Assembly: GCA_035764505.1 (NCBI GenBank)
Contig: DASTZC010000137.1
Location: 1-36,550, forward strand
DNA: 36,550 nucleotides
Direction: 5' to 3'
Source of the DNA: Candidatus Polarisedimenticolia bacterium
GTDB taxonomy: Bacteria > Acidobacteriota > Polarisedimenticolia > Gp22-AA2 > AA152
In this document: positions 3,331 to 27,514 of the stretch, piece by piece
How positions within the stretch are numbered: the stretch's first letter is position 1
How the letters are laid out: every line of letters begins with the position of its first letter
Translations under genes and position numbers: made by a program
The notes under the pieces: generated by a model
What the model saw: only the letters and a program-made list of their open reading frames with translations
What the model was told of the DNA's origin: nothing
Databases searched by the model: none

Positions 3331-5148
3331 CTAGCTCTTTGCCGCGCGCAGCTCTTCGACCATGGCAGCGAGATGCGCGGCGATTCGCTCGGGCTGGATG
3401 AGCTCGAAATGGCTCGGAGTCGGCTCGATGAGGAGTGAGCCGTCACGATGATGCTCACCGAGAATCTGCCGGTCCATGTGATCCGTGAGGACAGTCCGCA
3501 AAAGCCCCTTGCAGGTGTCGGTATCCTCGAAGACGCAGCGGACGAGCCGCGCCCGGGCGGCGGCCTCCCGGTACATCTGAGCGAATGCTTCCGGTCCGTC
3601 CCGCTCGAAAGGCTGGACCAGGTCGCGGCCCAGACGGCATAGCGGCGACAGGTCGTCCCGGAACCGGGCCATGATTCGACCCAGATAACCGTTGAGCAGC
3701 ATCCATTCGTCGACACTCGACGCTGTTTCGCTGATGGTCCGCAGGGCCGCCAGCAGCTTCACGGGATCGTTGCTTTCCAGCTTCGCAAGCACGCGGCTGA
3801 TGAAGCAGGTCTCGACCCCCTGATTGGGCCCCAGGGCGAGGACCCCGTCAGGCGCCCGAACGCCGGCGGGCGTGCTGGAAGCGAGCTGCAGCACGAAGTC
3901 TCCCGAGGCGGAAAACCCCACGACAATCACCAGTGAAGGGTTGCTTTCCTTCACCGTCACGCTCAGGAGCTCAGAGAGGAAAAGGATGTGGTCGCGCAGC
4001 GGCAGAGCCATGCGGTATCGCGGCCGGGGCTCGAATCCGTACAAGGTAGGCGCGATGCAGTGGTAAGGCAGCGTGCGCAGGTGCGTCTCGAAGTCGGATC
4101 CGTCCAGCCAGACCGCATTGAGCATCATGACCAGCACGTCGCTTTCCGCCTGATTGTCCAGATACTCGAGCGAATCGCCGATCATTCTGGGATCGAAGCT
4201 GCGCCGATCCAGCTTGCGGGCGAGGGTCTCGGTGACCGGCATTCGTGCCGTGATTGTCCCTCCCCGTCGCGAGCCGCTTATGGATGTACCGTCCGGACGG
4301 ACGGCCCGGTCCAGTGCGGCCAGAAGCTCCTCGGCGGACTGCCATCGATCGGCAGGCCGCACCTGGAGACAGCGTCTCACCGCCTCCTCGAGCGCCGCGG
4401 GCACGGAAGAGCGCTGCCTCGACAGCGGCGCCGGCTCCTGGGTCAGCCGCAGCATGGAGAGCTGCGCCGCGCTGCCCGCGACGAAAGGCGGAGCGCCGGA
4501 AAGCGACTCATACGCCAGCACGCCCAGAGCGTACAGGTCGGCCCGGTGATCCGTATTGGGATCGCCGGCGGCCTGCTCGGGCGCCATGTATTGCGGCGTC
4601 CCCATCGTCAGTCCCACGGCCGTCAGCGTCGTGGCCAGCTCATGGTCCGGGTTGTCCCCGGAGATCATCCGCGCGATGCCGAAGTCCGACACCTGCACGT
4701 GACCGGCGTTGAAGAGGATGTTCTCCGGCTTGATGTCGCGATGCACGATACCGTTCGAATGGGCGTGCGCGAGCGCGCCGGCAGCCTCACGCAGAATCTG
4801 GATAGCGTCGGCAATGGGAAGCTCTCGCTCATGGTTCAATCGATCACGCAGCGAGCCGCCGGCAAGGTAGGGCATGACGTAGTAGACCAGGCCCCCGGCT
4901 TCTCCGGAGTCGACGAGGCTGAGGATATTGGGGTGCTGCAAATGCGCCAGGAGACGGATCTCTCGCAGGAATCGCTGGACTCCCAGGGTCTCCGCCAGCT
5001 CAGGACGCATCACCTTGATCGCGGTGTCGCGATCGTACCGGAGGTCGCGGGCCAGATAGACGTTCGCCATGCCTCCCGCGCCAAGCTTCCGCTCGATGCG
5101 GTAACGGTCGGCAATGGACTCGGCGATTCTCAGCGCTATCTCGTCCAC
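3331..5148 (-). CDS. Ser/Thr protein kinase fused to alpha/beta-hydrolase-like domain
   Basis: This 605-residue cytosolic protein begins at a GTG codon (complement of 5146-5148) with GGAGAG a few nt upstream. Residues 16-283 are a complete Hanks-type kinase: glycine loop GAGGMANVY (23-31), Lys45 in AIK, HRD at 136-138, DFG at 155-157 and PE at 190-191. There is no transmembrane segment. After a short Ser/Gly-rich linker, residues about 325-600 look like an alpha/beta-hydrolase fold: strand DVLVMMLNAVWLDG (337-350), nucleophile-elbow-like VVGFSASGD (409-417), strand ARLVRCVFEDTD (533-544), and a C-terminal TPSHFEL with His580 where the catalytic His would lie. The elbow is GxSxSG rather than the usual GxSxG, so activity is uncertain. 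The kinase is certain. The hydrolase fold is inferred from motif order and predicted strands. The substrate is unknown. Confidence 0.85.
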   Translation of the reverse strand: MDEIALRIAESIADRYRIERKLGAGGMANVYLARDLRYDRDTAIKVMRPELAETLGVQRFLREIRLLAHLQHPNILSLVDSGEAGGLVYYVMPYLAGGSLRDRLNHERELPIADAIQILREAAGALAHAHSNGIVHRDIKPENILFNAGHVQVSDFGIARMISGDNPDHELATTLTAVGLTMGTPQYMAPEQAAGDPNTDHRADLYALGVLAYESLSGAPPFVAGSAAQLSMLRLTQEPAPLSRQRSSVPAALEEAVRRCLQVRPADRWQSAEELLAALDRAVRPDGTSISGSRRGGTITARMPVTETLARKLDRRSFDPRMIGDSLEYLDNQAESDVLVMMLNAVWLDGSDFETHLRTLPYHCIAPTLYGFEPRPRYRMALPLRDHILFLSELLSVTVKESNPSLVIVVGFSASGDFVLQLASSTPAGVRAPDGVLALGPNQGVETCFISRVLAKLESNDPVKLLAALRTISETASSVDEWMLLNGYLGRIMARFRDDLSPLCRLGRDLVQPFERDGPEAFAQMYREAAARARLVRCVFEDTDTCKGLLRTVLTDHMDRQILGEHHRDGSLLIEPTPSHFELIQPERIAAHLAAMVEELRAAKS

Positions 5149-15917: not shown

Positions 15918-18900
15918 TCAGGGGCACGTCCCAGAGCTGCTCATGACGCGCGCACGAAGCTGGCCGTTCAGGCTCTGGAATCCCGCGGAGCCTTCGCCCT
16001 GCGCGTTGTCCCCTCGCACCAGGTACCAGAAAAAGCTGCCGACGGGCGGGACCTCCGTCAGACCGCCGAACTCCTGGCCCAATGGGTCTATCAGCAGGCA
16101 CGCATCCGCCGCCGCATCGTCGAGATTGGCCAGCTGGTCGGGGGTGCCGCGATAGAGCGCGTAGAACGTCGCGTTCGGTCCCGCGTCCCACCTCACGGTC
16201 GTGTTGTTGGTGAAGCGAAGGTTCTGAACCTCGTCGGCGTCGATCGATGGGATGAAGTTCAGACACCACTGCTCGAAGCTTCCCGTGTCGGCGTTCGAGT
16301 CGTCGAAGACGTAGAGCGCCCAGAGGCCGGACGGATTGGTACCCTTGAAGACCGACAGGCTGCTTCCGTACGGTCCGCCCGGGGCGGGCGGCGCCAGCAG
16401 GTCCGCCGAGTCGAAGTCGGTGGGCAGATAGGTGCCGGACGCGGGGTTGTCCGCCTCGGCAAGCCCCGAAGCCGCGTCGTCGTCGAAGCTCAAGCTCACG
16501 TTGCTGATTCCCGGAAAGCCACCACCGGCGTCGGACATCAGGAGGGCGCTCTGTCCTTCCGGACCCACGAGCAGGATGTCCAGGTCCCTGGGGAAGGTGT
16601 GGCTGAGCCCGATGAGATCGACCCGAAGCTTGTACTGGCTCAAGTCCACGGGTAACTGGGGCGTCACGATGCCCGACCCGTAGAAGTCCGAGGGGCCCTG
16701 TGTCGTTCCCGGTGCCCCGGCCGGGATGTTGGTGTGGGTCACGTTGCAGGCGCGAAACGTGGGGAGCCAGGTGCTCAGCTTCAGCGACCAGCCGGATGAG
16801 ATCCTCCCGACATCTCCCGCCCGGTCGTCGAAGACGTAGAGGCGCCAGGTCCCGTTGGGCGAGAATCCGGCGAGATCGACGAGCGCGGCTCCATACGGAG
16901 CAGGTGGGGCCGGAGCGGGGAGAATGTCCAGCCCTTCGGTATTGTCGTTCGAGGGCTTGAAGGTCCCGGAGCCGACGTTCGTGAGCGTGGGGAGGCTTGT
17001 TGCGGCGGCGTCGTCGAAGGTGTAGTCGACCCCCGCGACCCCGGGGCCCGACCCGCCAACGTCCGACATGAGGAGAACGTCTGCTCCCGAGGGGCTCTGC
17101 AGCAGCACGTCGAGGTCCCTGGGGAACGTGTGGGTCACGCCGTGCAGGGTGACGGTCGCCTTCACGAGCGTGCCGATCACCCCCGAGATGTCGATCGTCG
17201 ACGGATACGGTCCTGCCGGTCCGGCGGTCGTTCCCGGTGCGCCGGCGGGAATGGCGATCGCGGCCGGATTGCTCTCCGCGGCGGGCGGCATCGTCGTGAT
17301 CCGCAGGCAGACGCTGGCGATGCTCCCCGTATCCAATGGGACAACATCCCGCACCAGGACGTTCCACGTCCCGTTCGGATTGAATGACTGGAACACTCCC
17401 AGGTTGACCGGGTAGGGCGCGGGCGGAGCGGGAGCGGGAAACGCAGGCACCACACCGAAGGCGGCCGGACGGTAGGTGCCGCTCGCGGGGTTGAACTCAG
17501 GGTCGAGCGCAAGGGGGGCGTCGTCGTCCAGCACCAGCGTCACCCCCGACACTCCGGGAGTCCCACCGCCTGTCTCCGCCATCAGGAGGCTCGACGGTCC
17601 GGCAGGGCTCGCAAGAAGGATTTGCACGTCAAGGGGGGAGGGATGGCTGAACCCCTTGAGCGTCGCGGTCACCTTGCTCGCCGCACCGGTCAGGCCCGCT
17701 ACGACGATGGGCAACGGGTAGGGGGTGGCGAGGGCCTGGTCGTTGATCGTGAGCGGGCCCGTGCTGCAGAACTCGGTGGCCATCACGAACTCCAGAGACC
17801 AGCCGCCGGCGATCGACCCGGCGCTGCCGGCCCGGTCGTCCACCACGAAGAGGCTCCACGTCCCGTTGGGGCTGGTGCCGTCGAACGCCTGGAGCGAAAC
17901 AGCTCCGCTCGGCACCGGCGCCGGCGCGGTGAAGACGTCCGACCCGCCGATGTTGATCGGCCGGTACGTCCCCGACGTCATCGGGGTCAAGGGGTCCAGG
18001 TCGTGCGCCGCATCATCGTCGAACGTGAGGGTGGCGCTCGCCGCCCCCGCGCCTGAGCCCACGTCGGACATCAGCACCAGGCTTTGACCCGTGGGACCGA
18101 CGAGCAGGATGTCGATGTCGCTCGGGAAGGGATGACTCAGCTTTCTAAGGGTGACGCGCACCTTGGAGATCACCCCCGTCAGACCGGCCACCTGGATCGA
18201 GGACGGGTACGGGGAGGCCGCCGCCGCGTCCAGGATGTTGATGCCGGGGGCGCTCGAGAACTCGACGCTGGGGGCCCGGGGAGCGAGCGTCGCGTCGTCG
18301 CTGTCGAAGGTGAGCGTCGTCGTCGGGGCGAGCGAGACGTCGTCCCTGGCCGTGAGCAAACGGCCTTCGGGCGTCATGCCCGTCAGGACGACCTCCCGCG
18401 TTTCGGCGTCGACCTGTAGGAGCGCCTTCGCGACCTCCACGACGAGATCGTCGCGCCGGTCACCGTCCACGTCCCGCACGGAGGCGAGCGTGCCTCCCGG
18501 CCCGCGGGTAACCGGAGCTCCCGACAGGCGCAGGAGGAAAGGATCGACGCGCGTTGCGTCGAAGCCGGACGCGCTCAAGAGCGCGACCTCGACCGTGCCG
18601 CGGTTCCCCAGCTCCAGGACGTTGGCCGGATCTCCCGGGAGCAGGTCGATCCGGGCCTGGATGGGCGGGAGCGTCTGGAGCTCCTGGGCCGCGCGCGCGG
18701 CGCGCTCCATCCGCTCGTTGCGCAGCACCGCCAGGGACCCGGACCCCAGGAGGGCCCGCCCGTCCCGGGTCTCTCCGGACAGCCAGGCGCGCACGCCGTG
18801 CTGATCGAGCCGCATCGAGCGCGAGGGGAACCTCGCGAGCAGGTCCGTGATTCCGTCGCCATTCACGTCCCGGTACGACACCAGGGATCCGTCCTCGCCC

Positions 18901-19136
18901 TTGGTGGCCGCCGCGCCCGCGAGGACGAGCGAGGCGGGCTCGATGTCGCGTACGTCCACTTCCTTGCTGCCCAGGATGGCGACCGGGACCGGCTCCGCCA
19001 GGACCGGGTCCACCCACTTCTCCCGCTCTCCCGGCAGGATCTCGATCCGCAGCGCGACCGCCGATTCCCCGTTGCTCTTGGCCATGGCGCTCGAGGCCAG
19101 GCACAGGCCCAACGCTCCCGCGATCAGAATCCTCAT
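15918..19136 (-). CDS. Large secreted protein with four P-domain-like repeats
   Basis: The protein has 1072 residues. Its ATG has AAGGAG 8 nt upstream. A signal peptide covers residues 1-19. Residues about 25-270 contain two acidic YRDVNGDGITDLL / VRDVDGDRRDDLV calcium-loop-like motifs. Four repeats of about 160 residues follow (about 293-452, 453-615, 623-790, 796-963), each with 'sHpfPsDiDiLLvgP.G', 'LMSDvGgg', 'FDDdA', 'sGTYrP' and 'NGtW.LyV.Dd...d.GsI'. This pattern matches the proprotein-convertase P-domain-like jelly roll. The last 107 residues are an FnIII-like module ending in Cys-Pro, also found at the end of the 26249 gene. No protease domain is present, so an adhesive or surface-binding role is inferred. 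Confidence 0.85.
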   Translation of the reverse strand: MRILIAGALGLCLASSAMAKSNGESAVALRIEILPGEREKWVDPVLAEPVPVAILGSKEVDVRDIEPASLVLAGAAATKGEDGSLVSYRDVNGDGITDLLARFPSRSMRLDQHGVRAWLSGETRDGRALLGSGSLAVLRNERMERAARAAQELQTLPPIQARIDLLPGDPANVLELGNRGTVEVALLSASGFDATRVDPFLLRLSGAPVTRGPGGTLASVRDVDGDRRDDLVVEVAKALLQVDAETREVVLTGMTPEGRLLTARDDVSLAPTTTLTFDSDDATLAPRAPSVEFSSAPGINILDAAAASPYPSSIQVAGLTGVISKVRVTLRKLSHPFPSDIDILLVGPTGQSLVLMSDVGSGAGAASATLTFDDDAAHDLDPLTPMTSGTYRPINIGGSDVFTAPAPVPSGAVSLQAFDGTSPNGTWSLFVVDDRAGSAGSIAGGWSLEFVMATEFCSTGPLTINDQALATPYPLPIVVAGLTGAASKVTATLKGFSHPSPLDVQILLASPAGPSSLLMAETGGGTPGVSGVTLVLDDDAPLALDPEFNPASGTYRPAAFGVVPAFPAPAPPAPYPVNLGVFQSFNPNGTWNVLVRDVVPLDTGSIASVCLRITTMPPAAESNPAAIAIPAGAPGTTAGPAGPYPSTIDISGVIGTLVKATVTLHGVTHTFPRDLDVLLQSPSGADVLLMSDVGGSGPGVAGVDYTFDDAAATSLPTLTNVGSGTFKPSNDNTEGLDILPAPAPPAPYGAALVDLAGFSPNGTWRLYVFDDRAGDVGRISSGWSLKLSTWLPTFRACNVTHTNIPAGAPGTTQGPSDFYGSGIVTPQLPVDLSQYKLRVDLIGLSHTFPRDLDILLVGPEGQSALLMSDAGGGFPGISNVSLSFDDDAASGLAEADNPASGTYLPTDFDSADLLAPPAPGGPYGSSLSVFKGTNPSGLWALYVFDDSNADTGSFEQWCLNFIPSIDADEVQNLRFTNNTTVRWDAGPNATFYALYRGTPDQLANLDDAAADACLLIDPLGQEFGGLTEVPPVGSFFWYLVRGDNAQGEGSAGFQSLNGQLRARVMSSSGTCP

Positions 19137-19948: not shown

Positions 19949-22900
19949 TCATTTCTGGCGAGCCCCTGGGACGGGTGGGCGGCGTTTCAGGATTCGCCGG
20001 ACGGGCGGGGCGGACAGGAAGCAAAGGCGCAGCGGCTCGTCGGCATCGAACGAATCGGCCAAGGCCAGAATAATCTTCTCCGCTCGAGCGCGTTCTGCCT
20101 CCGCCGCTTCATCGTTCTTCGCGCGTCGGTACAGCTCGGAGCGTGTCGCGTGGAGGCGCCAGGCCACCGTGGGAATGCGGAATCGCCGTGCCACCTCCAG
20201 GCCTCGCTCGATCGCCTCGACGGCGCCCTTCCGGCTCTTCTCGGCCTTCGAGACCCGAGCCTGCAAGTCCCATCCGAGGGCGTGCAGGTTCGGTTCGCTG
20301 GTCTGTAACGCGGAGGCGAGGAAGCGGTCGGCATCGCGGCGGGCCCGGCTTAGATCGCGGGCCGCCAGCCACACCTCGCTGAGTCCCATCTGCGCTCTCA
20401 TTCGCCAGTACCAGTGCAGGAAGAATTTCGCGGTGATGGCCGAGTCCAGAATTTCCGCGAAGCAGCGTGCCGCCTTCTCGTGATGCCCTCGCTCGAGCTC
20501 GGCGTACCCCATGGCGAATCTGGCGATGGTCTCGGGCTGGCGCCGCAGATAGGGGGTTGCGCGGCCCGCGACGGCCTCGCATAGCCTCAGGGCCCCCTCG
20601 AAGTCGAACACGATTGTCCGGAGCCAGGCCTCCCGGTAGTCGAAGAGCCACGGGTCGTTCCCGTTCTTTTCGGCCGCCGCCCGACCGGACCGCACCAGCC
20701 CCAGGAGAACGCCGAGACGACCCGACTGCAGCAACGCCACCGTCTTGCCACTCAGCGCGAAGAGATGGACCATCAAGGCGACCGGCTCGTTCGTCTTCGG
20801 GATACCGGACTCGAGATCCGCGAGCGCCTCGTCGTAGCACCCCTGCAGCAGCTTCACGTGGGAAAAGATCATCCGGTGGAATGCGGGCACCCCGGCGGGG
20901 TCGAGGCGCTGGAGGGACCGATGGGCCGATTCACAAATCTTCCAGTCCTCCTGGCGCCAGGCGTCATAGAGCAGCCGGCTTCCGGCGGCGAGCAGCTCGG
21001 TCCGGCCGCGCAGGAGCGGATCGGCCGACCCTGCGCACAGGGCCACCGCTTCCTCGATGGCGGCGATGCCGCGATCCGGATCGATGAGTCCGAAGGGACG
21101 GACGAGCGCGCTGAGGGCGTGGATCCGCGCTTCGGTGAGCCCGGCCCCAGCCGCCCGGACAGCGGCCGCTTCGTAGGCGCGCACGCTGTCCATCATCCCG
21201 CCGAGCCAATAGTGCGCATCTCCGATGCGTTCCAGGAGCCGGATCTCCGCATCGGCCCGGCTTCCGGCCTCGAGGCGTGGGACGAGCGCCATCGCATGCT
21301 CGAGGATCCGAATCGCCTCTAGGTAGGCGAAACGTGCTCCCGCATTCTCGGAGGCGAAGATCAGGTGCTCGACGGCCGGACCGTATTGCCTGCCCTCCTC
21401 GAAGTGCAGAGCGATCTCGCCCGCCAGCTCACGGCGGCCCGGGGAGGACAGGGCGCTCAGCCGCGCCCCCAGGAGCCGGTGCAGCCGGGATCGGCTTACA
21501 TCGGTCAGGCGGCGTGACACCGCGTGCCGGACCAGCCCGTGGCGAAACTCGTAGTGCGCAGACACGATCCCATTGCCGAGCTCCCTGAAGCCGGACGGTC
21601 GCAGGAAGTGCCGCTGCTCCGCCAGCCGCTCGCAGACGTCTTCTATCTCGTCCGACGTCAGGTCCGGCTCGGTCGCAAGCGCCCAGGCCGAGAAACGGTC
21701 CCCCGCGACGCTCGCCTGGTTCAGGACCCGTTGCTCGACCGCGTCGAGCATGGCGTACTGCACTTCGAGCACCTGCTGCAGTGTCGGAGGCACCGCCGTC
21801 TCCACCTCGGACAAGGGCCGGGCCAGGGACCAGGGTCCGCTCCCACCGACGATCATCCCCCGCTCCACCATGTCCCTCACGAGCGTGGCCATGAAGAGCG
21901 CATTGCCGCCCGAATGGCGCTGGATCACGCCGGCGAGATCGGCGGGGAAATCGGCCCCGGGAAATTCCGCCGCGAGATAGGCGGCGACCTCCGGAACTCC
22001 GAGGTCCCCCAGGCTTATCTCATCCCCGAGGCGATGGACCACGAGATCGCGAACCAGCACCCTCAGCGGGTTCTCCGCTGCCGCGCCATCAGCCGGGCGG
22101 AACGTGCCGAGGATCAGGAGCTTCGCCGGACCGCGCCTCCGGGACAGAGCCGACACGACGTCGAGGGTGGACAGGTCAGCCCAATGCAGGTCCTCCAGGA
22201 CGAGGACGAACCGTTCGTCGCGGGTCAGATGCTCCAGGGCTTCCCCTATCTCGCGCACCATGCGCTCCCGTGTCGACCCGAGCGTGTCCCGCTGCAGCGC
22301 CTCCCTCGCGTCGCTCTTGACGAGCGAGGGGAACTGCAGGAGCCAGGTCGGGGCGTATCGGAGAAACGCGTGCGCGACGTCGTTGCGGTCTGACTCGCGC
22401 AGGAGCGCGCCGAACGCCTCCAGCAACGGGTAGTACGGCTCCTTGCCACCGAAGCCCTCGACGCACTGGCCTCGCGCGACGCGAACTCCGGCCCGCATGG
22501 CGGCGCAGCGCAGGAACGCGTCGACGAGCGTCGTTTTCCCCGCCCCCGCCTCGCCGCTGACGAAGACGATTTGCCGCCGCCCTTGCAGCGCGTCGTCGAG
22601 GTAGCCTTCGAGGCGGGCCTGTTCCGCGTCGCGACCGACCATCGCCGCCGTCACCTGGGCAACGACCGACGCGAATTCCTCGGTCTCGCTGATGGGGGCC
22701 ACGAACTGATACCCGCGCCTCGGGAACGTCTCGATGAACGTCGGCTTCTCCGATCGATCCCCCAGGGCCTTCCGGATCTCGAGGATGTACTTCTTCACGA
22801 CCTCCGGATTGACGTGGACGTCGGACCAGAGGGCGTCGAGGATCTCGTCCTGGGTCACGAGCCGGTGGGCATGCTGGACCAGGTACCGCAGCAGGTCGAA

Positions 22901-22987
22901 CGCCTTGGGCGCGATCGAAACCCGCTCGTCTTCGCGATACAGACGATGATTGACCGTGTCGAGGCGAAACTCGAGGAATTGCTTCAT
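19949..22987 (-). CDS. Winged-helix / ATPase / TPR transcriptional regulator
   Basis: The protein has 1012 residues. Residues 1-98 form an OmpR/CadC-type winged helix (VSIAPKAFDLLRYLVQHAHRLVTQ, VKKYILEIRKALGD, FIETFPRRGYQF). Residues about 117-400 are an AAA_16-like STAND ATPase with Walker A GEAGAGKTT (145-153) and Walker B VLVLEDLHWAD (261-271). The remaining 600 residues are helical repeats of TPR type (for example YLEAIRILEHAMALVPRLEAGSRADAEI). There is no transmembrane segment, so it acts in the cytoplasm as an ATP-gated activator. The signal is probably bound by the TPR region. The start has only a distant AAGG. It is divergent from the kinase gene 228 bp away, a possible target. Confidence 0.88.
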   Translation of the reverse strand: MKQFLEFRLDTVNHRLYREDERVSIAPKAFDLLRYLVQHAHRLVTQDEILDALWSDVHVNPEVVKKYILEIRKALGDRSEKPTFIETFPRRGYQFVAPISETEEFASVVAQVTAAMVGRDAEQARLEGYLDDALQGRRQIVFVSGEAGAGKTTLVDAFLRCAAMRAGVRVARGQCVEGFGGKEPYYPLLEAFGALLRESDRNDVAHAFLRYAPTWLLQFPSLVKSDAREALQRDTLGSTRERMVREIGEALEHLTRDERFVLVLEDLHWADLSTLDVVSALSRRRGPAKLLILGTFRPADGAAAENPLRVLVRDLVVHRLGDEISLGDLGVPEVAAYLAAEFPGADFPADLAGVIQRHSGGNALFMATLVRDMVERGMIVGGSGPWSLARPLSEVETAVPPTLQQVLEVQYAMLDAVEQRVLNQASVAGDRFSAWALATEPDLTSDEIEDVCERLAEQRHFLRPSGFRELGNGIVSAHYEFRHGLVRHAVSRRLTDVSRSRLHRLLGARLSALSSPGRRELAGEIALHFEEGRQYGPAVEHLIFASENAGARFAYLEAIRILEHAMALVPRLEAGSRADAEIRLLERIGDAHYWLGGMMDSVRAYEAAAVRAAGAGLTEARIHALSALVRPFGLIDPDRGIAAIEEAVALCAGSADPLLRGRTELLAAGSRLLYDAWRQEDWKICESAHRSLQRLDPAGVPAFHRMIFSHVKLLQGCYDEALADLESGIPKTNEPVALMVHLFALSGKTVALLQSGRLGVLLGLVRSGRAAAEKNGNDPWLFDYREAWLRTIVFDFEGALRLCEAVAGRATPYLRRQPETIARFAMGYAELERGHHEKAARCFAEILDSAITAKFFLHWYWRMRAQMGLSEVWLAARDLSRARRDADRFLASALQTSEPNLHALGWDLQARVSKAEKSRKGAVEAIERGLEVARRFRIPTVAWRLHATRSELYRRAKNDEAAEAERARAEKIILALADSFDADEPLRLCFLSAPPVRRILKRRPPVPGARQK

Positions 22988-23197
22988 GGCATGCCGAGCC
23001 TTGCCGTGCAGCCGGATTGGTCCGAAGTTTGCGCGTTTTCCTCTTAACTATCTCATAACTCGTTGCCTTGTGGTCAACCTGCAGAGAACTCCAGTCTTTA
23101 CGACAGAATGAGCCACTCTTCAGCCTCGTAGGGCAGCGCGATACCCGTTGCAGGTGGAGAGGATGTTGAACGTCGTCGAGATGCTGCACGGGCGGCG

Positions 23198-23203
23198 TAT
23201 AAT
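23198..23203 (+). promoter_or_regulatory. Perfect TATAAT -10 close to a kinase start
   Basis: TATAAT ends 11 nt before the ATG of the kinase at 23215. Transcription would start about 5 nt before the ATG, giving an almost leaderless message with no ribosome site. No good -35 lies 16-18 bp upstream. Confidence 0.5.
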
Positions 23204-23214
23204 CCTCGGCCAGT

Positions 23215-26124
23215 ATGGCGCTCTCCCCTCGCACGAAGCTCGGACCCTACGAGATCCTGTCGGTCGCCGGCTCCGGTGGCATGGGAGTCGTCTACAAAGC
23301 CCGGGATACCCGGCTCGATCGCATCGTCGCGCTGAAGGTCCTGCCCGAAGCCCTCGTGCGGGATCCTGCCCGACGGCAGCGGCTGGAGCAGGAGGCGCGC
23401 GCCGTCTCCAGCCTGTCGCACCCGCACATCTGCACTCTCCACGATGTGGGCCACCAGGAAGGCATCGATTACCTGGTGATGGAGTACCTGGAAGGCGAGA
23501 CGCTGGCCGCGCGCCTTCACCAGGGGCCGCTGCCGCTGGACCAGGCGCTGCGTCACGCGATGGAAATCGCCGGGGCCCTGGACGCAGCACATCGCCGCGG
23601 ACTCGTGCACCGCGACCTCAAGCCGGGAAACATCATGCTGACGCCGGTCGGCGCCAAGCTGCTGGACTTCGGACTTGCGAAGGCGGTTCAGGACGTGCCC
23701 GCCGAGACCACCGAGCAGGATGCGACCGCGGCCCCGACGGCGACGCGCAAGCCCGCGACGCGCAGCGGCGTCATCATGGGCACACCGGCCTACATGTCGC
23801 CCGAGCAAGCCACGGGCAAACCGGTCGACGCGCGCTCCGACATCTTTTCCTTCGGCCTGATCCTCTACGAGATGCTCACGGGACAGCGGGCTTTCGGCGG
23901 CGATTCCGAGGCTCAGGCTCTGGCCGCGATGCTGCGCGATACTCCGCCGCCGGTTCGCAGGTTGAGGGCGGAGATTCCCGCGGACGTCGAGCGGGTCATC
24001 CAGCGCTGCCTGCCGAAGGACCCGGCCTCCCGCTACCCGGACGCGTCGGCTCTCCTCGCGGATCTCCGGGCCTGCGAAGCGCGCCGGCTGGCCGGGAGCG
24101 TTCCCCGAAGAGGGATGCTGCGTTGGGTGGTCATCCTGCCGGTGGCGGCCGTCGTCCTGGCGGCCGTCGCGTTCTCGATCTGGACCTGGCAGCGCGCCGC
24201 GCGCGAGCGCCAGGCGCGGCAGGCTCTCCCGGAAATCGCACGCCTCGTGGAATCGGAGCAGGCGGTCGGTGCCTTCCGCCTCGCCCTGCAGGTGGAGCCC
24301 TTGCTCAGAAACGACCCGGAGTTCGACAAGCTTTGGAGAAATGTGGCCGTGCCTCTATCCCTGAGCAGTGATCCGCCCGGGGTCGAAGTGCAGTTCAAGG
24401 CCTACGACCAGCCTGGCTCGGAATGGAACCGCCTCGGGATCACGCCCCTGGAAAACGTCCGCGTTCCCGTTGGACAGCTCCGCTGGAAGCTGGCGCGCGA
24501 TGGGTACGAGACCGTCGAGCTCGCCGCTAATCCCGGAAGGCTCCCGCCCTCAGTGAAGCTCGTCCCGCTAGGCCAGGCTCCTCCCGGGATGGTGCGCGTC
24601 CCGGGCGGAGTTTATGGGTACCGGGCCACGCGGCCCATCGAGCTTGCAGATTTCTGGCTGGATCGTTTCGAAGTCACGAACCGCGAGTTCAAGGTATTCG
24701 TGGACCGGGGGGGATACCGCGAGCGGGCCTACTGGAAGCAGCCGTTCTCGAAAGACGGGCGTACGCTGACCTTCGATGAAGCCATGAGCTTGTTCCGGGA
24801 CGCCACCGGCCGTCCCGGCCCCTCTACCTGGGAGCTGGGCACCTACCCGGAGGGGCAGGCCGACTTCCCCGTGAGCGGAGCCAGCTGGTACGAAGCCAGC
24901 GCCTACGCGGAATTCGCCGGCAAGACGCTTCCCACCTTCTATCATTGGTTCCGCGCGGCCGGCGCGGATGATCCCTTTTCCGGCATCCTTCCCTTGAGCA
25001 ACTTCGGCGGCCAGGGACCGGCGCAGGCGGGAAGCACCGAGGGACTTTCCCCCTGGGGCAACCGCGACATGGCCGGCAACGTGAAAGAGTGGGTGTGGAA
25101 CGCCGCGGGGTCCCGCCGTTATAGCCTGGGTGGAGCGTGGAGCGATCCGACCTACCTGTTCACGGGACCCGATGCGGTGGACCCGTTCGACCGCAGCCCG
25201 GTTCAGGGCTTCCGCTGCGCGCGCTACGATACTCCGCCTGCGGCGGAGACGTTCGGCTCGATCGAGAAGGTCTTCCGCGACTACTCGAAGCTGACGCCGG
25301 TAGGCGACGCGATCTTCGCGGCCTACCGCAGCCTGCACACCTACGACCCGCAGCCGCTCGAGACCCGCAGCGAATCGCCGACGGAAGAGTCCGAGTACTG
25401 GAGGGAGGAGCACATCAACTACGCCGCAGCGTACGGCGGGGAGCGGGTCCCCGCCACGCTATTCATTCCGAAAAACACCGCCCCCCCTTACCAGGCCGTC
25501 CTCTACTTTCCGCCGGGAAGCGCCCTTCGCCTGCATTCGATTCGCGATGCAGGCACGCGTCAGTTCGCCTTCCTGGTTCGCAGCGGGAGAGCCGTGCTGT
25601 TTCCCGGCTACAAAGGAACCTACGAGCGGCGGCTACCCCCGGGAACCGGCGGAGCGAACGCCGAGCGAGACCTCACGATCGAGTGGTCCAAGGATATCGG
25701 GCGCTCGCTCGACTACCTCGAGAGCCGGCCCGACATCGATAAGACTCGCCTCGCTTTCTACGGGCTCAGCATGGGTGCGGTGATGGGACCCATCGTCGGG
25801 GCCGTCGAGCCCCGCTTGCGCACGCTGGTGCTCGTCGGCGGGGGCCTCAGCTCCGGGGAAGAGCCTCCCGAAGTCGACCCCTTCAACTTCGCGCCGCACG
25901 TCCGCATCCCGGTCCTCATGATCAACGGAAGCCACGACTTTCTTTTCCCTCCTGAGACCTCGCAGGACCCGATGTTCCGCCTGTTCCAGTCGCCCGTGAA
26001 TGCTAAGCGCCATTACGTCTTCGACGGTGGACACGTCCCTCCACGCATGCAGGAAGTCGCCCGCGAGACGCTGGATTGGCTGGATCAGTACCTCGGCCCG
26101 GTCCGCCTTGGCGGGTCGCAGTAG
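23215..26124 (+). CDS. Ser/Thr kinase / TM / FGE-like / alpha-beta hydrolase fusion
   Basis: The protein has 969 residues. A complete kinase domain spans about 12-283 (GSGGMGVVY, Lys41, HRD 132-134, DFG 151-153, SPE 195-197). One transmembrane helix lies at 302-324. Residues about 384-450 resemble a PEGA-type beta domain. Residues 455-672 are an FGE-sulfatase/SUMF1-like domain ([43 protein letters not shown]). Its usual Cys pair in the segment before GFRCA is absent (only Cys668), so formylglycine synthesis is unlikely. Residues about 735-960 are an alpha/beta hydrolase with Ser852 in YGLSMGA, Asp908 in NGSHDF and His940 in DGGHVPP, an intact-looking triad. By topology the kinase is cytoplasmic and the FGE-like and hydrolase parts are periplasmic. 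It may be a receptor kinase with an enzymatic or ligand-binding ectodomain. Confidence 0.9.
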
Positions 26125-26248
26125 AATCTCCTCTACCGGACCGTCAGATTCGACAATTCTCAGCAAGATCTTCTCTCTCTTCGCTCGGATTGGGCGTATC
26201 GTGATCGGGTTCAGCCATAGGACATGCGTTACAGGCAGGAGAGCCGCC

Positions 26249-27514
26249 ATGCGGCGAGCCATCAAAAGTCTTTGCTTGTTTCTGACTCTCGCCGCTCTGG
26301 TGCCCGTGGGCCGGGCGGAAGCGGGATCGATTGTCAGGCTGGGCCCCTGCGCCAATCCCGATTGCAACGTCCCCCCGCCCAATTCGGGTTTTATCCAGGT
26401 GGCGACGGGCAACTATCACAGCATGGGCCTGAGGTCGGACGGTACTATCGCGGCCTGGGGGATGTGCGACGTCGGGCAGTGCAACGTGCCTCCCCCCAAC
26501 TCCGGGTTCACCGCCATCGCCGCCGGGGACAGCCACAGTCTGGGACTTCGGCAGGACACCTCGATCGCGGCCTGGGGGGACAACGAGCAGGGGCAGCTCA
26601 ACGTGCCGGCGCCGAACACGGGCTTCGTGGCCATCGCGGCCGGCCTGCTGCACAGCATCGCGCTGAAATCCGACGGCTCGATCGTCGGCTGGGGCCGCAA
26701 CAGCTCAGGCGAGACCGTCCCCCCCGCACCGAACAGCGGCTGGGTGGCGATCGCCGCGGGCGGTTACGTCAGCATGGGATTGAAGTCCGATGGCTCCGTC
26801 CGGAAATGGGGCTGCGGCGGAGCTTGCCCGGTACCTTCACCGAACACCGGCTTCGTCGCGATCGCGACCAGCTACGACCACAGCCTCGCGCTCCGGGCGG
26901 ACGGCTCGATCGTGGCCTGGGGCGGCAACGCTTACGGTCAGCTCGACGTGCCGGAGCCGAACTCGGGATTCGTGTCGATCGCGGCGGGAATATTCTTCAG
27001 CCTCGGCGTGAAGTCCGATGGCTCCCTCATGGCCTGGGGCAAGATCGATCAGAACTATGTGCCCCTCCCGAACGAGGGCTATCAGGCGGCGACCGCGAAC
27101 CAGGGGCTGGCCGATGCCTTGAAGTCCGTGCCCTCCGACGCCGACGGGGACGGAGTGCAGGACGACGTCGACTGCGCGCCGTCCGACCTGCTGGCGTTCG
27201 CGATCCCGGGCGAGGTCCGAGATCTCAGGTTCGAAACACCCACGGATTTGGCCTGGACGACGGAGACGGGACGGTCGGGCATGGGCACGACTTATGACAT
27301 CGTCCGCGGGTCGCTCTCCGGCTTCCCCGTGCAGCCCGGCTCGGGCGAGAGCTGCCGGACCGACGGCCTGTTCGTGACCTACTTCTCCGACACGGCCAAG
27401 CCCGCTTTGGGGACTGGCTTCTACTTCCTCGTGCGCGCCGCGAACCACTGCGCCAATGGCACCTACGGGTCCGCCAGCTCAGGCTTCGAACGGATCACTT
27501 CTGTTTGCCCGTAA
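26249..27514 (+). CDS. Secreted RCC1-repeat protein
   Basis: I choose the ATG at 26249 (421 residues), which has AGGAGAG about 7 nt upstream. The frame is open further back, into the end of the kinase gene. Residues 1-25 form a signal peptide. About seven RCC1/ATS1-type repeats of about 45 residues follow, each reading approximately 'GFvaIAaG..HSlaLksDGSIvaWG...GQ..VP.PN'. They should form a beta-propeller. A calcium-loop motif DADGDGVQDDVDC follows, as in thrombospondin type 3 repeats. The last 100 residues are the same FnIII-like module as in the 15918-19136 gene and also end in Cys-Pro. It is probably a surface or secreted binding protein. Its ligand is unknown. It begins 124 bp after the kinase-hydrolase gene on the same strand and may be co-transcribed with it. 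Confidence 0.85.
   Translation: MRRAIKSLCLFLTLAALVPVGRAEAGSIVRLGPCANPDCNVPPPNSGFIQVATGNYHSMGLRSDGTIAAWGMCDVGQCNVPPPNSGFTAIAAGDSHSLGLRQDTSIAAWGDNEQGQLNVPAPNTGFVAIAAGLLHSIALKSDGSIVGWGRNSSGETVPPAPNSGWVAIAAGGYVSMGLKSDGSVRKWGCGGACPVPSPNTGFVAIATSYDHSLALRADGSIVAWGGNAYGQLDVPEPNSGFVSIAAGIFFSLGVKSDGSLMAWGKIDQNYVPLPNEGYQAATANQGLADALKSVPSDADGDGVQDDVDCAPSDLLAFAIPGEVRDLRFETPTDLAWTTETGRSGMGTTYDIVRGSLSGFPVQPGSGESCRTDGLFVTYFSDTAKPALGTGFYFLVRAANHCANGTYGSASSGFERITSVCP

Follow-up and report, generated by a model that had tools for sequence, protein, structure and literature searches.

A receptor-like Ser/Thr kinase from Acidobacteriota with a predicted outer FGE-like and alpha/beta hydrolase cassette

Introduction

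For most transmembrane Ser/Thr kinases of bacteria the input is, to our knowledge, not known. RsbQ of Bacillus subtilis is an alpha/beta hydrolase whose catalytic triad is required, and which together with the PAS domain of RsbP forms a sensing module that serves several, diverse outputs (PMC3183031). RsbQ is a separate protein, and the PAS domains it partners are linked to phosphatase, histidine kinase or diguanylate cyclase outputs. The chlamydial Pkn1-type kinases carry a C-terminal FGE domain in the same chain as the kinase (PMC3581485). In plants, D14 and KAI2 are sensors derived from hydrolases.

The protein described here is encoded in a window of 36,550 nucleotides from a Candidatus Polarisedimenticolia bacterium. 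It resembles RsbQ-RsbP in having an alpha/beta hydrolase with a triad within what appears to be a sensing module for diverse outputs; however, the hydrolase is covalently fused to an FGE-like domain, is predicted to lie on the outer side of the membrane, and is joined in this family to Ser/Thr kinase or winged-helix (wHTH) outputs. The protein is not an RsbQ-like module in the sense of a separate RsbQ beside an RsbP-type PAS domain, since the hydrolase is fused and Pfam finds no PAS domain in the protein. It shares with the chlamydial Pkn1-type kinases the presence of a kinase and an FGE-sulfatase domain in one chain, but the published description of those kinases names no hydrolase, and it is by this description only that they are set apart (PMC3581485). 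In its logic the protein is comparable to RsbQ-RsbP or to D14/KAI2, but it is differently built. We found no paper in the open-access literature that describes a kinase-FGE-hydrolase fusion. We think it probable that the protein is an enzyme-coupled receptor kinase that crosses the membrane once and whose predicted outer hydrolase is tied to signalling.

Domain architecture

The open reading frame runs uninterrupted from an ATG at 23215 to a stop codon at 26122-26124 on the forward strand, and reading the DNA gave the same coordinates as the initial annotation. The five parts that had been placed in one chain (kinase, transmembrane helix, PEGA-like, FGE/SUMF1-like and hydrolase) were borne out by Pfam, by hydropathy, by homologues and by a structure model. 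The features are:

23215..26124, forward strand: whole gene, 969 amino acids, in the order kinase, transmembrane helix, helical neck, PEGA-like domain, FGE-like domain, alpha/beta hydrolase (open reading frame, Pfam, model)
23248..24036, forward strand: Hanks-type Ser/Thr protein kinase, residues 12-274 (Pfam PF00069, E 1.4e-44; motifs; PDB matches to PknB)
24127..24189, forward strand: single transmembrane helix, about residues 305-325 (19-residue hydropathy 2.65)
24190..24345, forward strand: residues 326-377, juxtamembrane helical neck modelled as three helices (AlphaFold2 model, alignment)
24346..24558, forward strand: PEGA-like beta domain, residues 378-448 (beta strands in the model; PF08308 in homologues)
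24583..25230, forward strand: residues 457-672, C-type-lectin-like domain of the FGE/SUMF1 fold that lacks the catalytic Cys pair (PF03781, E 1.3e-20; EgtB match; Cys columns)
25276..26100, forward strand: alpha/beta hydrolase with a CE7 acetyl-esterase-like fold, residues 688-962 (Z 26.0 to CE7; profile match to PET46 and MHETase)
25768..25770, forward strand: predicted catalytic Ser852, in GLSMG (59/59 homologues)
25936..25938, forward strand: predicted catalytic Asp908 (59/59 homologues)
26032..26034, forward strand: predicted catalytic His940 (58/59 homologues)

The kinase part has the glycine loop, the VAIK lysine and the HRD, DFG and APE-type motifs of the Hanks type, all complete in the query (GSGGMG at 19, ALK at 39, HRDLKP at 132, DFG at 151 and YMSPE at 193), and by a simple motif test the kinase is also complete in 46 of 49 homologues. 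A PDB search returned PknB structures as the closest solved kinases. The window protein thus has a kinase domain closest to that of PknB and, like the PASTA kinases PknB and StkP, a single transmembrane helix, but it lacks PASTA repeats: there is no PASTA match in Pfam, and the PASTA kinase model NF033483 scores 298 bits, from the kinase part only, against an NCBIfam equivalog cut-off of 450.

Each of the 54 homologues measured has a hydrophobic segment comparable to the transmembrane helix, with a mean hydropathy of 2.34. The charge difference across the helix is slight, with a net charge of +3.3 inside versus +2.3 outside. Three other observations place the tail from the PEGA-like domain to the hydrolase outside. 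The kinase has to be cytoplasmic. So does the Trans_reg_C output, which in some relatives precedes the same transmembrane helix and tail. Finally, the closest relatives of the hydrolase that stand alone (L044, L052, L057 and L102) begin with hydrophobic N-termini that by eye resemble signal peptides. The outer location claimed in the initial annotation for the FGE-like and hydrolase domains is therefore favoured over a cytoplasmic one. With intact kinase motifs, a single transmembrane helix (by hydropathy) and an outer tail (its side judged from the N-terminal outputs), the earlier reading of the protein as receptor-like and as a transmembrane Hanks-type kinase with an outer sensor holds.

Outer domains and catalytic residues

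An alignment of 17 homologous tails (A1) formed the basis of a Pfam tally and of an AlphaFold2 model of residues 337-969, which reached a mean pLDDT of 88.5 and a pTM of 0.78; the model was compared to solved structures with Foldseek and VIA-align. The domain search proposed earlier for the outer half recovered the FGE-sulfatase domain in the query itself and the hydrolase through Pfam matches of homologues and through its fold. PEGA (PF08308) was matched in seven of the 17 homologues and not in the query.

FGE-sulfatase (PF03781) was found in all 17 homologues, and residues 457-672 of the model superimpose on EgtB in its FGE-like half, with Z 22.8 over 204 residues (rmsd 2.3, 30% identity). 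Pfam and structure agree on the FGE fold, but the catalytic Cys pair is absent, as had been noted before: the only Cys outside the membrane in the query is C668 of the GFRC motif, position 644 is Asp or Glu in 55 of 58 homologues, and the stretch LCHESYC of a true FGE (6s07) aligns where the family with the FGE-hydrolase tail has W-x-D/E-P. The pair is missing throughout the homologues, and FGE enzymatic activity was rejected on this ground. The domain thus shares the fold with SUMF1/FGE and with EgtB, its best match, but differs from the former in the Cys pair and from the latter in that the DinB/iron half is lacking. An EgtB sulfoxide synthase was likewise rejected, with no DinB match in Pfam and an NCBIfam EgtB score of 61 bits against a cut-off of 360.

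Taken alone, the hydrolase of the query gives only weak, sub-threshold Pfam matches (FSH1, Peptidase_S9). Its homologues match PETase, DLH, Abhydrolase_1, Peptidase_S9 and AXE1, each model in 5 to 10 of the 17. In the model, the best structural counterparts of residues 688-962 are the acetyl xylan esterases and cephalosporin-C deacetylases of CE7, which align over about 260 residues with Z 26.0 and an rmsd of about 3 A. When a profile of 53 hydrolase domains is aligned with PET46, MHETase and polyester hydrolases, the Ser, Asp and His fall into register. The fold and the Ser-Asp-His triad, the latter by sequence register, are those of CE7 (AXE1, PF05448), but the Pfam AXE1 score of 16.5 bits lies below the gathering score of 21, identity to the CE7 enzymes is 16-20%, and the domain is part of a membrane-tethered fusion. 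The signature motifs of CE7 are RGQ, GxSQG and HE; the query has YKGT, GLSMG and HV in their place, and the substrate can therefore not be read from the fold.

The triad itself was correctly numbered in the initial annotation. Of 61 tails collected, 59 cover the three positions, and all but one of these keep the complete triad, so that its loss in close homologues, which would have spoken against that annotation, is not what we see. One might suppose that the hydrolase fold only binds a ligand, with the triad kept for structural reasons, because there are known cases of enzyme folds reused as receptors and the CE7 motifs are not kept. However, Ser, Asp and His are almost invariant among homologues that mostly share 32-50% identity with the query hydrolase. 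Ligand binding alone does not usually require such strict conservation, and we regard such a catalytically silent receptor as very improbable.

In a comparison of the query with its closest orthologue (G003), dN/dS was 0.137 in the FGE-like part and 0.134 in the hydrolase; the kinase reached 0.24, and the transmembrane/neck and PEGA parts about 0.45-0.49. The strongest constraint thus falls on the FGE-like and hydrolase parts, which argues against the enzyme being a decaying passenger. Two separate conserved outer domains with about equal dN/dS would also fit a hydrolase that terminates the signal, in which case the FGE-like domain would bind the ligand and the hydrolase would destroy it and so reset the receptor. 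This explanation is improbable in our view, as ligand binding by the FGE-like domain is a conjecture.

Distribution and exchange of output domains

The earlier proposal to survey kinase-hydrolase fusions in related genomes was followed in a sample of 396 genomes, all from Acidobacteriota. The cassette is found in 44 of them (E <= 1e-60), some of which have up to three copies. The named relatives are Acidobacteria MAGs and one genome labelled Bacteroidetes, whose sequence groups with an Acidobacteria sequence on the tree. A phage, viral or plasmid origin was rejected, as no full-length relative was found among phages, viral contigs and plasmids. From the source genome, 41 kinase open reading frames were collected region by region and 38 of their tails compared. 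One of the 38 is the cassette, about 17 match PD40 propellers and about nine match TPRs; the hydrolase profile found no further match among these tails.

Most cassette proteins with a readable N-terminus carry a kinase. In three proteins (L064, L065 and L122) a wHTH of the Trans_reg_C, ToxR/CadC type stands alone before the same transmembrane helix and tail, and in two others (L040 and L127) wHTH and kinase occur together. The former three have the arrangement of ToxR/CadC-type one-component regulators (wHTH, transmembrane helix, outer sensor), but with the FGE-hydrolase cassette as the outer sensor; in the window protein a kinase takes the place of the wHTH. On the tree of 56 tails four changes of output are required. 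The same outer half on different inner signalling parts suggests, at the level of sequence, a reusable enzyme-based sensing cassette. This swapping of outputs is our strongest evidence that the part from the transmembrane helix to the hydrolase is a sensing module and no accident of fusion. In one of the proteins with both outputs (L127, G333:C196), HHDIT replaces HRDLK; its kinase is possibly degenerate, with the output moved to the wHTH.

The output changes also bear on another explanation, namely that the hydrolase is a working periplasmic esterase merely tethered to the membrane. If this were the case, signalling would come from the FGE-like and PEGA domains, and the fusion would reflect co-localisation or co-expression. 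The triad is conserved as in true enzymes, the closest relatives that stand alone seem to be secreted enzymes, and genes for TonB-type outer membrane proteins adjoin the gene in one relative (L159). However, the fusion survives the output switches, as expected for a sensor module and not for a passenger, and we consider a mere tethered esterase unlikely.

Proposed mechanism

The reading of the window protein as an enzyme-coupled receptor draws together the intact kinase motifs, the single transmembrane helix, the invariant triad and the missing FGE Cys pair, the confident outer model with its CE7 and EgtB matches, and the presence of the cassette on a kinase, on Trans_reg_C or on both, with four switches being the mark of a sensor module. 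In such a receptor the FGE-like domain may act as a binding scaffold beside the hydrolase, which would bind or hydrolyse a ligand with an ester or acyl group, such as an acylated glycan or some other small ester. The change brought about in this way, or dimerisation, could be relayed through the PEGA domain and the helical neck across the membrane and switch the output domain. In the window protein the kinase would then phosphorylate its targets; in other relatives the same cassette would act on a DNA-binding winged helix.

A more specific hypothesis, which we offer only tentatively, is that the unit of transmembrane helix, helical neck, PEGA, Cys-less FGE and CE7-like hydrolase is a cassette undescribed before that perceives an external ester by hydrolysing it, in the manner of plant D14/KAI2, and that has been exchanged, throughout the phylum, between outputs of the Ser/Thr kinase kind and those of one-component transcription factors. 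If it is true that the hydrolase gates signalling, the cassette would be a fused bacterial counterpart of the hydrolase-derived sensors RsbQ and plant D14/KAI2. An enzyme-like sensor offers a catalytic serine that can be probed, so that activity-based probes and ester libraries could find the class of ligand. Where the cassette sits on a DNA-binding output, as in some relatives, signalling might be read directly on the promoter.

Genomic neighbourhood

No conserved gene neighbour of the cassette was found across 26 contexts, and a conserved operon partner was rejected for this reason. Two relatives (L164 and L167) have a gene for an ECF sigma factor immediately upstream, in the same orientation, and its end overlaps the beginning of the kinase gene. 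The window gene itself has no ECF sigma gene beside it; this, like the lack of a conserved neighbour, speaks against the receptor reading. ECF sigma factors encoded next to Ser/Thr kinases are activated by phosphorylation in the pairs EcfP-PknT and EcfK-PknS (PMC8999054), and by analogy the adjacent sigma factor is likely the kinase target in at least these two relatives. In L159 the gene is repeated in a cluster that also encodes TonB-type outer membrane proteins and more kinases. Together with L160 (G116:C16:325000-356000) it belongs to a tandem cluster in which numerous Ser/Thr kinases, three of them with the cassette, are interspersed with carboxypeptidase-regulatory/TonB-type outer membrane proteins.

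By the count of the initial annotation, hydrolase-like domains occur on two of three kinases here, the second being the one encoded at 3331-5148 on the reverse strand. This count found no support. The tail of that kinase, about 320 residues that contain GFSASG, has no Pfam domain, no similarity to the window hydrolase by profile and no informative PDB match. Hydropathy reveals no clear transmembrane segment in it, a single-sequence structure model is uninformative (pLDDT 36), and only one weak partial match was found among the 396 Acidobacteriota genomes.

Upstream of the cassette kinase gene, a promoter-like TCGAGA-16-TATAAT at 23176-23203 on the forward strand ends 11 bp short of the ATG; if used, it would make a near-leaderless transcript. 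Chance alone would give 0.4 such motifs in this region. A regulator with Trans_reg_C and an AAA_16 ATPase (19949-22987, reverse strand) is divergent from the kinase gene, with 228 bp between them. Directly downstream, the open reading frame of an RCC1-repeat protein (26000-27514, forward strand) overlaps the kinase end by 121 bp, and its true start therefore probably lies later than 26000. Farther upstream, 15918-19136 on the reverse strand encodes a protein of 1072 amino acids that has two stretches of proprotein-convertase P-domain and matches FG-GAP weakly.
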